Shown here: one piece after another, positions 14,794-29,655 of the stretch
Position numbering within the stretch: the stretch's first letter is position 1
Layout of the letters: each line of letters starts with the position of its first letter
Translations under genes and position numbers: made by a program
Assembly (NCBI GenBank): GCA_010093705.1
Contig: MU006091.1
Location: 1,168,702 to 1,232,701 of the forward strand
Reading direction: 5' to 3'
DNA length: 64,000 bases
Source: Patellaria atrata CBS 101060
Taxonomy: Eukaryota > Ascomycota > Dothideomycetes > Patellariales > Patellariaceae
The notes under the pieces: generated by a model
What the model was told of the DNA's origin: nothing
The model's input: only the letters and a program-made list of their open reading frames with translations
Databases searched by the model: none

Positions 14794-14924
14794 GGGCGAC
14801 TGGTTTAGTGGTATAATACCCCCTTAGCATGGGGGTGGTCCGGGGTTGTAAGTTGAATATCTTAGAAAATATCTTCTTCTGTGCAAGTTACTAACATGTG
14901 TAAAAGCGATTCCCCGGTCGTCCA
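14794..14924 (+). tRNA. tRNA-Ala(AGC) split in the T-loop by a spliceosomal-type insert
   Basis: Without the insert this is a complete 72-nt cloverleaf. Acceptor stem: GGGCGAC (14794-14800) with GTCGTCC (14917-14923), one G-U pair, discriminator A at 14924. D arm: 14803-14817. Anticodon stem: CCCCC/GGGGG (14819-14823 and 14831-14835) around loop TTAGCAT, anticodon AGC. Variable loop: TGGTC. T-stem: CGGGG (14841-14845) with CCCCG (14912-14916), perfectly paired. The T-loop TTCGATT is cut after its second T by 59 nt (14848-14906). All stems pair, so the gene does not look decayed. The A box TGGTTTAGTGG is intact; the B box GGTTCGATTCC is interrupted. A T6 Pol III terminator follows at 14932-14937. 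Ordinary tRNA introns sit after position 37; there is none there. Confidence 0.88.
14848..14906 (+). other. 59-nt insert in tRNA T-loop with full spliceosomal intron signals
   Basis: The insert starts GTAAGT, carries TACTAAC (14889-14895), the optimal fungal branch site, and ends AAAAG 11 nt later. Its exact removal rebuilds TT+CGATT, a canonical T-loop. At 59 nt it matches protein-gene introns in this same window (59 nt in SKP1, 59 nt for the second EPL1 intron, 60 nt in THO2). It lies between tRNA positions 55 and 56. Archaea and some algae have T-loop tRNA introns cut by the tRNA endonuclease, but those lack these three signals. Confidence 0.8.
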
Positions 14925-14931
14925 AAATCCC

Positions 14932-14937
14932 TTTTTT
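14932..14937 (+). terminator. Pol III T-run terminator
   Basis: Six consecutive T begin 8 nt after the discriminator base of the tRNA, the normal place and length for RNA polymerase III termination. Confidence 0.7.
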
Positions 14938-15265
14938 GCATTCTGAGAAAGAACTTATTTTTTGGGCAAGGTTTCGACCACGTCTAAATAAGGTCAGGTG
15001 GCTAGTACAATTATAGAAATCTATCCGGCTCACTACGGATAAGGTTCTCATCTTGGAATATCGCACTAATGTTCTCATCCGAAAATAGTGGAACAGCTTT
15101 TTCAGGAGATAGAATATAAAATCCGGTGGAGCTGCTCTTTAGGACGAGCTGTGCTGATACCTTAAGCAACAGTTGATCATAAATACCCACGATACCTTAC
15201 CTTTTGTGTATTTTCTCAACACCCCACTACTACCCCACTATCAACAGCAACAACAAAATAGGATA
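14938..15265. other. tRNA 3' flank and ARMT1 promoter
   Basis: About 330 bp with no gene. C/A-rich leader sequence (CCCACTACTACCCCACTATC around 15222-15241) directly precedes the ARMT1 start. Confidence 0.55.
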
Positions 15266-16970
15266 ATGGAGTACGATACTAAGACTCGTGAGTTAAATCT
15301 ACCAATATACAAAAGAACCTCATCTTGATTATTATAGCGTTGTGGAACAATGGGGACAAATTGTCCTTTGCCTGGCCTTCTGCGCGAGAGCGATGGCCAG
15401 TCATAATAGTCAGTACAACCTAGCTATTCTGAATACTGTGGAAACTAACGGAGTAGTTTAGACCACCGCGATTGACGATGTACACCGAACGACATTCGAT
15501 TCCACTGATGCAGAAACGCGGAGTGAAGGTAAGCGCATTGTGGAACAGCTTGCAAATCTCAAATACGAACTTCAACATGACCGTCAACTGACGTGAGCTT
15601 TCTAATTTCCCCGAGTGAGGATGGTAACTAAATCAGCATAGGCCAATTGAGGATGATGGTGAATCAGACGTTGCATCATATAACGAGGAGCTCGCAGCAT
15701 TGGGTCCTCTGCACTGGTTCACTGCGCCCTGGTTGTTCTCGGAATGCTACATGTATAGGTGATTATAGTCCACATTCGACATGTCGGAGACATACATTGA
15801 TCAACCGAAGATAGACGCATGCACTCGTACTGTACGCTTAGCACAAAATGGAAGAACTACGATTTCTTCTCCCGGCAGAAGATGGCTACCTTCAAGTCCT
15901 CCCGTCCCGCAGTCCTCGAGCTCGCAGCACAATACAAGAACATCGTCACTGAGCTGGGTACAGGACAACAAGAAAGATCAGAGAAGTCTGCAGAGGAGAT
16001 AGAAGCTGCCGAAAAGCTGTTGTTCATCGAGATGTGCGAGATCTGTCTTTGGGGCAATGCGACGGACTTGTCTCTCCTCACAAATGTATCCTACGATGAC
16101 ATTCAGAAGCTCCAAGGCTCAGCAGCGCGTAAGAAAGCGGAGAAGAATATTTTGGTTAATGACTTGCCAGCAGCCTTCCAAGTGTTAAGAGCTGCGCAGA
16201 AGTCGAACAAGGGTGAAAGGCGAGTCGACTTTATTCTGGACAATGCAGGTTTCGAACTCTTCGTGGATCTTATCCTTGCTGGATACCTTCTATCGACAGG
16301 ACTAGCAACGACGGTTGTCCTTCATCCAAAGTCTATCCCATGGTTCGTTTCCGATGTTGTTCCTAAGGACTTTAGCGACCTGCTCAACGCTCTTGCTGAT
16401 CCTCAATCCTACTACACAACACCTTCCGATGACGAGAAACATAGAGATGTCACCCCTCAGCCGCTCTTAGACAAGGAATTAGATGAGCTTGCCTTCCTGT
16501 TCGATAGCTGGAGCACCTTCCATGCGGAAGGGAAGCTTGTCATCCGCCCCAACCGTTTCTGGACAGGAGCAGGAAGCTACTGGAGACTGCCAAAAACAGC
16601 ACCAGAGCTTCATGAAGACCTTAAGGAAAGTGAACTCGTCATTTTCAAGGGTGACTTGAATTACAGGAAACTGACTGCTGATGTAAGTAGTGATATAGGA
16701 AGAGTTAGTAGCGTCCTGTTAACATGTACTCTATAGGCTATGTGGGACCCAGCTACCCCCTTTTGGGAAGCAATTGGGCCTCTTGGTCCAGGATCGGGAA
16801 TGCGCACGCTCGCTCTTCGTACTGCAAAAGGCGATGTCATTGCAGGGCTACCAAAAGGTAAGGACGAAGAGATGAGGGCAATGGAAGGAGGGGGTGGAGA
16901 TAGCGGTGCTCGAAAGTGGGCGTGGAGCGGCAAGTGGGCAGTTGTCCAATTCTTAGACGGTAAGGTGTAA
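15266..16970 (+). CDS. Damage-control phosphatase, ARMT1/DUF89 family (Hrt2-like)
   Basis: DUF89 proteins are metal-dependent phosphatases that clear damaged or reactive sugar phosphates such as fructose-1-phosphate; yeast homologues include YMR027W. Six exons (15266-15287, 15338-15408, 15462-15592, 15642-15758, 15815-16682, 16737-16970) give 480 residues, the usual fungal size. Conserved blocks are RWPVII near residue 30, LHWFTAPWLFSECYMYR, the metal-site block DNAGFELFVDL, VLHPKSIPWFVSDV, and FKGDLNYRKL before the last intron. The first exon codes only seven residues; its ATG plus splice gives MEYDTKTPLWNN, fitting the family start. Its stop is 53 bp from the KAE1 stop (convergent). Confidence 0.93.
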
Positions 16971-26626: not shown

Positions 26627-29600
26627 ATGGCATTCGACTCGTCAGGTGGATATGTTGCTGCAAGCAATCTTCAAGATGCTTCAGAAACAGCTCCTCCTAT
26701 CTTTACTGTTGAGCGAGTAGAGCTTCGCTTTGGAACATCTTCAGAGTTTCTAGCAGCAGAGGTAGCCAACAATGTATTAATCCTAGCCCTCTCTACAAAC
26801 CGTATATTGAGAATAGACCTTGACAGTCCCACCGACATTGATGGTATACAAAGTTATTCTTCCTGTATAAATTGTAGAAGACTCGAGTTAAGATACTCTT
26901 AGACATTGATCTTCCCAAGAAGGCATCGGAAATCGGCGTTATACGGCGCATGTTCCTCGACCCATCCGCTTCCCATTTGATCATCACCACTACGCTCAGC
27001 GAGAACTATTACCTACACACACAGTCGCGGCAACCTAAAACTCTATCGCGGCTAAAGGGCGTGTCAATCGAGAGCATAGCATGGAATCCCTCCCGACCAA
27101 CAGCTTCGACGCGGGAGATACTCGTTGGCGCATCGGACGGAAACGTCTACGAGACATACATAGATCCGTCTACGGAGTTTTACAGAAGGGAAGAGAAATA
27201 CTTCAAATCAGTGCACAGGGCGGATGGAGCTGTGACCGGATTATGGGCCGATTTGATACCTAACCGGTCGGATGCACGACGTGTCTTAGTTGCCACCCCA
27301 GGCAAACTTTTCCATTTCGTGGGGAAGATTGGACGACATGGGCATGAAGGAAGTGGCTCAATATTTGCTGCGCTTTTCGAATCGGAGAGTCCAACTGTCC
27401 ATGAATTGGCCACACAAGCTGCTACCGGGACATCATGTCTTGCTGTGTCTCCGGACCCCACTGAAGGTGCTCATGCGGATAGTGCTGGTATAGAACGAAC
27501 GTTTGCTTGGCTCTCTTCCCAAGGTGTATTCCATGGCCCACTATTGACTTCTTCGGACCTCTCTAGACTGGGCAATAAGCTTTACTCAGAGTCGAGGATG
27601 TTACCCAGGGCGCAAATACCAGCAACCCATACAGCAGGCGGACGACTAAGGCATACACAAGATCCCGTCACTTCAATGATACTTAGTCAGTGGCATATCA
27701 TCCAGTTAGTAGAAGGTAGGGTCGTGGCCACTAATAGACTGGATGACACAATCGTCTATGATCAGATGGTGTTGGAAGCCGGTCAATCCGCGGTAGGCCT
27801 TGCGGCTGATTTGACAAAGAATACATACTGGCTATTCACCGCGCAAGAAATTTTTGAGATTGCAGTTCGGGATGAAGACCGTGATGTCTGGAAAATTATG
27901 CTCAAGAACCAGCAGTTCGATGCTGCTTCTCGACATGCCAAAACTTCTGCTCAGAAAGATGCCGTTGCAACCGCTTCAGGAGACTTCCTAGTCAGTAAAG
28001 GACAATTCCTCGAAGCTGCTAATGTTTACGGACGAAGTACAAAACCGTTTGAACAAGTTGCACTCACCTTTATAGACCATGGGGAACAAGACGCCCTTCG
28101 CCGTTACCTATTAACGAAACTATCAACCTTGAAAAAATCCTCAGTTATGCAACGTATAATGGTTGCGACATGGCTGATTGAAATTTACATGTCGAAGCTG
28201 AATTCATTGGATGACACTATTACTACAAGGGCTGAATTATCGGATATGAATGCTACTGACTCTCAAATGCAGCTTGCCGCAATCCGGAAAGAATATCAGG
28301 GGTTCGTCACGAAGTATAAGTCCGACTTAGATCGAAAGACGACGTATGAAATCATAAGCAGCCACGGTAGGGAAGAAGAACTCCTCTACTACGCCACAGT
28401 GATCGAAGACTACAACTACGTCCTCGCCTACTGGATCCAACGCGAACGCTGGGCCGAATCCCTAACCGTTCTTAACAAGCAAACCAACCCGGATACTTTC
28501 TACAAGTACAGCAGCGTTCTCATGGCCGCCGTTCCCATCGAACTCGTCGAAATAATGATGCGCCAGACCAACCTCGACGCCCGCAAGCTCATCCCCGCGC
28601 TCCTTAACTACAACAAGAATGTTAAGGGGCCTCTGACTAAGAATCAAGCGGTGCGATATCTGCTGTTTGAGATCAACCAGCATAACTCGACTGATGCCGC
28701 GGTGCATAACACACTCATATCTATCTATGCTTCGCACCCCTCCAAGGACGAGTCGGCCCTACTCTCCTACCTCCAAGCCCAATCTTATGCCCAAGTCCAA
28801 TACTACGACGCAGACTTCGCCCTGAGACTATGCATCCAACACGCCCGCGTCCAATCCTGCGTACATATCTACAGCTCGATGTCGCAATACTCCCGCGCCG
28901 TCGACCTCGCCCTCAAACACAACGCCATTGACCTCGCCTCGTCCGTAGCCGACCGCTCCGAAACGCCCCCCGTCCTGCGCAAAAAACTCTGGCTCGCCGT
29001 CGCCAAGAAAGTCATTCGAGACACCGACGGCATCAAAGGCGCCATCGAGTTCCTCAAGCGTTGCGACTTACTGCGGATAGAAGACCTGATCCCGTTCTTC
29101 CCCGACTTCGTCCTCATCGACGACTTCAAGGACGAGATATGCGCGGCACTGGAATCGTACTCGTCGTCCATCGACGAGCTGAAGCAAGAGATGGACGCCA
29201 GCGCCGACACGGCCGCGCACATCAAGCGCGACATCAAGGCGTTGGATCAGCGCTACGCCATCGTGGAGCCCGGCGAGCGCTGCTACGTCTGTCGTTTGCC
29301 CTTACTCGCGAGACAGTTCTTCGTTTTTCCCTGTCAGCACGCCTTTCACAGCGATTGTCTGGGTAGGAGTGTCGTCGAGATGGCGGGACAGAGCAGGGGC
29401 AGGAGGATCAGAGAGTTGCAGGCTGAGGTTAGTAGACTGGGGAATAAGGGGAAAGAGAGGGAAAGGGTTATCAGGGAGTTGGACAGCTTGGTTGCCGGCG
29501 CTTGGTGAGTTTTTCCCTTTTCCCTTCGTTTGGGGGCTGGTGTTTTGATCGGAAGGCTAATGTGGGACAGTGTGCTGTGCAGCGAGATGGCGGTCGATCA

Positions 29601-29655
29601 GGTCGATGAGCCGTTTGTCAAGGTGAGCGATAATACGGCGGAGTGGGCATTGTAG
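26627..29655 (+). CDS. vps18: VPS18/Pep3, HOPS and CORVET tethering subunit
   Basis: Vps18 is a core subunit of the HOPS and CORVET complexes that tether endosomes and vacuoles before SNARE fusion. Three exons (26627-26843, 26903-29504, 29571-29655) give 967 residues. The N-terminal half is a beta-propeller (PIFTVERVELRFG, then SIAWNPS and EILVGASDGNVYE). It is followed by clathrin-repeat-like helices (QFLEAANVYGRS, FEQVALTFI) and a C-terminal RING-like zinc module (CYVCRLPLL, FPCQHAFHSDCL, and CVLCSEM supplied by exon 3). The last intron falls inside the zinc module, so a single-exon reading would lose the final Cys pair. From about 28380 codon choice becomes strongly C-ending, unlike the first half. 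Confidence 0.96.

Follow-up and report, generated by a model that had tools for sequence, protein, structure and literature searches.

Putative spliceosomal introns in Pol III tRNA genes of the fungus Patellaria atrata

U2-type spliceosomal introns have very likely entered RNA polymerase III (Pol III) tRNA genes of Patellaria atrata CBS 101060, a wood-dwelling fungus of the Dothideomycetes, and would be removed there by the spliceosome. We identified introns of this kind in at least five tRNA genes of the species, and another in its U6 gene. Standard teaching assigns nuclear tRNA introns, one per gene and located between positions 37 and 38, to the tRNA endonuclease and ligase. With mRNA-type introns in tRNA genes, tRNA production may therefore depend on the spliceosome. 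Somewhat less firmly, we consider it likely that the introns entered repeatedly, at four positions of the cloverleaf, that cytosolic translation depends on the spliceosome through what is possibly the sole tRNA-Trp, and that two unrelated splicing machines act on single pre-tRNAs. If these genes are spliced as we read them, the spliceosome can mature tRNAs, and intron gain reaches Pol III genes, consistent with reverse splicing into abundant small RNAs; such genes would also escape tRNA annotation. Since the tRNA finders we tried miss or misread split genes, other genomes may harbor the class unnoticed.

One of the five is a tRNA-Ala(AGC) gene in the window, the whole stretch of 64,000 nucleotides, on contig C3, that was analyzed (Table 1). 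Direct reading of positions 14794-14924 of the forward strand confirms what a sequence-only reading had described: a T loop split between positions 55 and 56 by 59 nt that begin with GTAAGT, contain TACTAAC and end in AG. The anticodon arm has no 37/38 intron. Exact removal of the insert rebuilds the tRNA, again as had been claimed: ARAGORN calls the spliced 72 nt a complete tRNA-Ala(AGC), in which every stem pair forms but 13-22 (T-T), a pair also missing from the intact paralogue described below and from eight other tRNAs in a 24-row alignment. The spliced molecule contains G3:U70, the alanine identity pair. Left unspliced, the gene gives no ARAGORN match, with or without anticodon-loop introns allowed, and no Rfam match even at E<=1 (351 bases searched). 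The GT-AG boundary of the intron cannot slide, because the bases flanking the two junctions differ. A hand estimate with uniform base frequencies puts the chance of a GTAAGT start, an AG end and a TACTAAC near the 3' end occurring together at about 1e-8.

Table 1. Features of the tRNA-Ala(AGC) gene and other genes of the window (locations without prefix are window positions), and split tRNA genes elsewhere in P. atrata
Feature	Location	Strand	Remarks
tRNA-Ala(AGC) exon 1	14794..14847	+	54 bases, positions 1-55: acceptor 5' strand, D arm, anticodon arm, variable loop, T stem 5' strand, T54 T55; sequence, ARAGORN, alignment
A box (TGGTTTAGTGG)	14801..14811	+	Uninterrupted; sequence
B box, 5' part GGTT	14844..14847	+	Resumed as CGATTCC at 14907-14913, beyond the intron; sequence
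Putative U2-type spliceosomal intron at 55/56	14848..14906	+	59 nt; splice motifs, exact removal restores the tRNA
5' splice site GTAAGT	14848..14853	+	Sequence
Branch-site motif TACTAAC	14889..14895	+	11 nt upstream of intron end; sequence
3' splice site AAG	14904..14906	+	Intron terminus AAAAG; sequence
tRNA-Ala(AGC) exon 2	14907..14924	+	18 bases, positions 56-73: remainder of T loop, T stem 3' strand, acceptor 3' strand, A73
Pol III-type terminator TTTTTT	14932..14937	+	7 nt past the tRNA; sequence
ARMT1-like/DUF89 phosphatase gene	15266..16967	+	Nearest downstream gene identified; start codon 341 nt past the tRNA
VPS18-type gene	26627-29652		59-nt intron at 26844-26902
tRNA-Ile(AAT), L090	C31:85722-85859		Split at 25/26 by 50 nt
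tRNA-Thr(AGT), L076	C3:1733617-1733768		Split at 23/24 by 58 nt
tRNA-Leu(TAG), L114	C2:1665130-1665294		Split at 31/32 by 59 nt
tRNA-Trp(CCA), L130	C2:2217163-2217299		Split at 23/24 by 53 nt

The sequence-only reading had also suggested searching the genome for other such inserts in T loops. Four further tRNA genes contain inserts of 50-59 nt of the form GT..CTAA(C/T)..AG outside 37/38, at three other positions (numbered by hand), none of them in the T loop. Once the insert is removed, ARAGORN calls the expected tRNA in each case (Ile, Thr, Leu, Trp) and still places a second, small intron in the anticodon loop, where ordinary tRNA introns lie. The inserts of these four genes leave the A and B boxes uninterrupted, only spaced wider, and a run of at least four T lies downstream of each of the five split tRNA genes. 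For the T loop itself, the genome-wide pattern GTTGTRNGTN{36,66}AGCRANNCC had five matches versus seven for its reversed control, and none of the four matches outside the window fits R1, a covariance model of T-loop-split tRNAs built from 24 rows. R1 scores the window gene, itself one of those rows, at 112 bits; on 71 loci it produced 17 matches, all at tRNAs that had been read differently and none with a T-loop intron by sequence.

Same-anticodon genes devoid of such an insert exist for Ala (L027), Ile (L091) and Thr (L041). The Ile paralogue (C31:86854-86941), in opposite orientation to the split gene, shows the empty site, and two exonic differences between the two genes make up one compensated pair. 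They form a natural before-and-after pair for dating the Ile intron. That the inserts are assembly or sequencing errors is scarcely credible, given six separate loci with coherent splice signals and, for Ile, a paralogue with an empty site at a distance of 1 kb on that contig. Leu(TAG) is the weakest of the split cases: its 5' site is GTTTGT, and ARAGORN can alternatively read this gene with one 84-nt anticodon-loop intron, which places a Thr anticodon on a Leu-type body. Our tRNA searches found a single copy of it; an IAG tRNA could decode one of the Leu(TAG) codons.

The splice signals recur from insert to insert. All six (Ala, Ile, Thr, Leu, Trp and U6) start with GT, end with AG, measure 49-59 nt and contain CTAAC or CTAAT at 8-11 nt from their end. 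The fungal 5' splice-site consensus is GTRNGT, which is matched by GTAAGT in Ala, Ile and U6 and by GTATGT in Trp; Thr (GTAATT) and Leu (GTTTGT) deviate. The ordinary anticodon-loop introns of P. atrata served as a control, namely the 38 called by ARAGORN in the loci examined minus three that belong to mis-assigned split genes. None of these 35 combines GT-AG ends, sought within two bases, with a CTRAY word; ARAGORN intron boundaries are approximate and off by some bases in several of the control genes. One 14-nt control has GT-AG ends by this measure and no branch motif; CTRAY occurs in two controls that do not have such ends.

These observations bear on another way of reading the inserts, as tRNA-type introns in ectopic positions that the tRNA splicing endonuclease excises, for which excerpts of PMC8450103 and PMC3978253 offer a parallel in introns outside 37/38 of archaea and some algae. 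We regard it as very improbable: all six inserts combine the end and branch motifs of spliceosomal introns, consistently spaced, none of the 35 ordinary introns does, and U6 carries an intron of the same kind. The window insert sits at 55/56, not at the 37/38 position of tRNA endonuclease (bulge-helix-bulge, BHB) introns.

The lengths of the inserts fall within the range of protein-gene introns, 49-78 nt among seven introns of two annotated window genes, one of which is 59 nt. The sequence-only reading had likened the size of the window insert to that of 59-nt introns in SKP1 and EPL1; a 59-nt intron is present in the VPS18-type gene of the window. A SKP1-like reading frame lies near 2051 on the minus strand. 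A CTRAY word occurs in three of the seven protein-gene introns, in one of them 35 nt from the end, which is too far. The branch motif is therefore more regular in the tRNA and U6 inserts than in the protein-gene introns; an uncapped short transcript may need stronger splice signals.

Assignment of the window insert to the spliceosomal class, as first suggested, gains from the four other split tRNA genes and from the like insert in U6. The U6 gene at C1:675319 onward (L063) is the only one found with an intact ACAGAGA. Its 49-nt intron (C1:675384-675432) has the form GTAAGT..GCTAAC..TTAG and contains GTTCGAATCCC, a B-box match. U6 being indispensable, splicing of a Pol III transcript very probably takes place in P. 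atrata already. The search with RF00026 scored 47 of 1761 candidates, so that another U6 is possible. A diverged, intronless match to this family at C1:639983-640079 (L062), with an ACAGAGA two bases short and followed by T6, may be a pseudogene or a U6 variant. In the SRP RNA, found at full length, we detected no large insert.

The mechanism we propose runs in four steps. Pol III would transcribe the split tRNA genes, both internal boxes being uninterrupted in four of the five. The spliceosome would recognize GT, CTAAY and AG in the short transcript and remove the intron by the branching pathway. The tRNA endonuclease would then excise the ordinary 37/38 intron where there is one, and the rejoined RNA would fold and be processed like a normal tRNA.

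The window gene differs from the other four in its promoter. Judged against the box consensus, its A box is uninterrupted and its B box is split by the intron; the best B-box match within 14794-15000 (7/10, at 14971) lies beyond the terminator. We found no TATA or TATT between -45 and -21 of this gene; such a motif is present in the Thr, Leu and Trp split genes and absent in Ile. GC comes directly after the T6 run, an arrangement shared with many other P. atrata tRNA genes. The absence of T runs from the intron is uninformative, since 10% of shuffles do as well. Because the ARMT1-like gene lies downstream on the same strand, the insert could be imagined as a 5'-UTR intron of its Pol II transcript, with the tRNA sequence as a passenger. 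We find this improbable: the T6 run separates the tRNA from that gene, the insertion falls at a tRNA position from which removal rebuilds the tRNA perfectly, and the four split tRNA genes at other loci would be left unexplained.

The sequence-only reading had proposed a count of intact tRNA-Ala(AGC) genes, and one was found, L027 (C23:84765-84846). By inspection its T loop is uninterrupted and an ordinary intron follows position 37; ARAGORN puts this intron elsewhere and for that reason labels the gene Ser(CGA). In mature form, L027 and the window tRNA-Ala differ at 6 of 72 positions, in acceptor and T stem, and these amount to three base pairs with both sides changed in each. Compensation in all three pairs indicates that selection for stem pairing acted while the two genes diverged, a divergence that may predate or postdate entry of the intron into the window gene.

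The intact paralogue and the split B box make an own function of the window gene less certain. Together with the missing TATA/TATT, they lend some weight to a view of this gene alone as a silenced pseudogene, in which the arrival of an intron disrupted the B box and put a stop to Pol III transcription, with decay still pending. We consider that view a possible but less favored one: no uncompensated change separates the gene from L027, and its A box and T6 terminator are intact. As a general account it fails for Trp, where the only gene found is split. We lean, with moderate confidence, towards the window gene being expressed and spliced; given the paralogue, it may serve as a functional second copy, be expressed only weakly or be in the process of being lost.

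We found no donor for the window intron: in a BLAST search of the genome that skipped very common words, 151 bases matched only themselves and exon 1 of L027. Nor is there support for an introner family, since among the loci compared each of the six introns matches only itself, save for one 14-base match of the Thr intron.

Spliceosomal introns also occur in nuclear rRNA genes of ascomycetes. A title cited in PMC11782384 describes an mRNA intron in the 18S rDNA of deuteromycetes; these are likewise mRNA-type introns in a non-coding RNA gene of filamentous ascomycetes, but the host is a Pol I rRNA there and a Pol III tRNA here. A close likeness is with U6 of Schizosaccharomyces and other fungi, a short Pol III RNA gene with a spliceosomal intron. 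The excerpt of PMC10484740 gives fission-yeast U6 as a precedent for an mRNA-type intron in U6, and its reference 17, as cited there, places the B box of Schizosaccharomyces U6 within the intron. P. atrata U6 is itself an example, with its B-box-like word in the intron as in Schizosaccharomyces. In contrast to U6, the split hosts described here are tRNAs, comprising five genes and four positions, and four of them have an ordinary tRNA intron as well; furthermore, the intron of the window gene splits a B box rather than supplying one.

P. atrata also shares tRNA introns outside 37/38 with archaea, the alga Cyanidioschyzon merolae and the Guillardia theta nucleomorph. In the source passages, however, those introns are described as bulge-helix-bulge structures for the tRNA endonuclease, whereas the P. 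atrata inserts have spliceosomal signals. PMC3978253, in excerpt, regards algal tRNA genes of the ectopic and permuted kinds as BHB-mediated, and states that many G. theta tRNA introns are without a defined BHB motif. PMC8450103, in excerpt, sets a limit of one intron per tRNA gene in eukaryotes and treats non-canonical positions as archaeal; according to both papers, as excerpted, archaeal tRNA genes can hold more than one intron. Ordinary nuclear 37/38 introns are present in P. atrata, including in four of the five split genes; unlike the split-gene inserts, they measure 10-41 nt by ARAGORN and have no GT-AG and branch signature.

Among the titles and abstract openings listed in limited searches of the open-licence PubMed Central literature, none reports a spliceosomal or mRNA-type intron in a tRNA gene, which agrees with the earlier statement that none was known in a tRNA. 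Excerpts of PMC11782384 and PMC6461891 hold no such report, and the P. atrata papers in that literature do not have the subject in title or abstract opening. The type of intron, and a Pol III RNA (U6) as its host, were known already; what is new is that the host is a tRNA, that several genes are affected together, and that a single pre-tRNA would be handled by two splicing systems.

The significance of the Trp gene depends on how fully the tRNA genes of P. atrata were surveyed. A genome search with RF00005 scored 63 of 1031 candidates and placed 38 tRNA genes over the cut-off, the window gene not among them. Genes for Pro, Phe, Tyr, Val, Ile and Met that bear only the usual intron also escaped it and were found later. 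Because several isotypes were absent from this list, we ran tRNA-specific pattern searches and read the loci with ARAGORN and an insert-tolerant finder. A hand tally gives 53 tRNA genes: the 38 from RF00005, five found by inspection (four Pro, one Phe), four more (two Tyr, Val, Ile), one Met and the five split genes. One pattern list was complete at 97 places, of which 69 were read with ARAGORN or the finder; the finder recognizes only genes whose A box is standard and whose acceptor stem has 6 or more pairs, and 20 places were covered for only about 190 bases upstream. For another tRNA pattern, 100 of 274 places were listed, including all 27 exact matches. Counting of B boxes is no guide, as B-box words show no enrichment over the reversed pattern (369 genome-wide versus 400; 100 of the 369 places listed).

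The case for a split gene being in use is strongest for tRNA-Trp. Tryptophan has one codon, and its tRNA one anticodon. The split gene L130 is the only tRNA-Trp gene found. There is none among the 38 RF00005 genes, and the T-arm word of L130 turns up a single time in the full list of 97 places. An uninterrupted copy of the same type would be three mismatches from the searched pattern, and a search permitting three found no such copy. As no uninterrupted tRNA-Trp was found, splicing of L130 is probably obligatory. A second, diverged tRNA-Trp gene may exist; the inventory is incomplete and the assembly may lack genes. By none of the searches used did we find a tRNA-Glu, which may lie outside the patterns or be interrupted too.

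Two minor observations come from the same searches. Five loci (L098, L102, L104, L105 and L106) share the B-box-like word ACGTCGTCGGTTCGA or a close variant, possibly a dispersed repeat, and the finder reads no tRNA there. A weak tRNA-like sequence of 20.8 bits, below the cut-off, at C4:1234026-1234108 (L113) is probably a degenerate tRNA.
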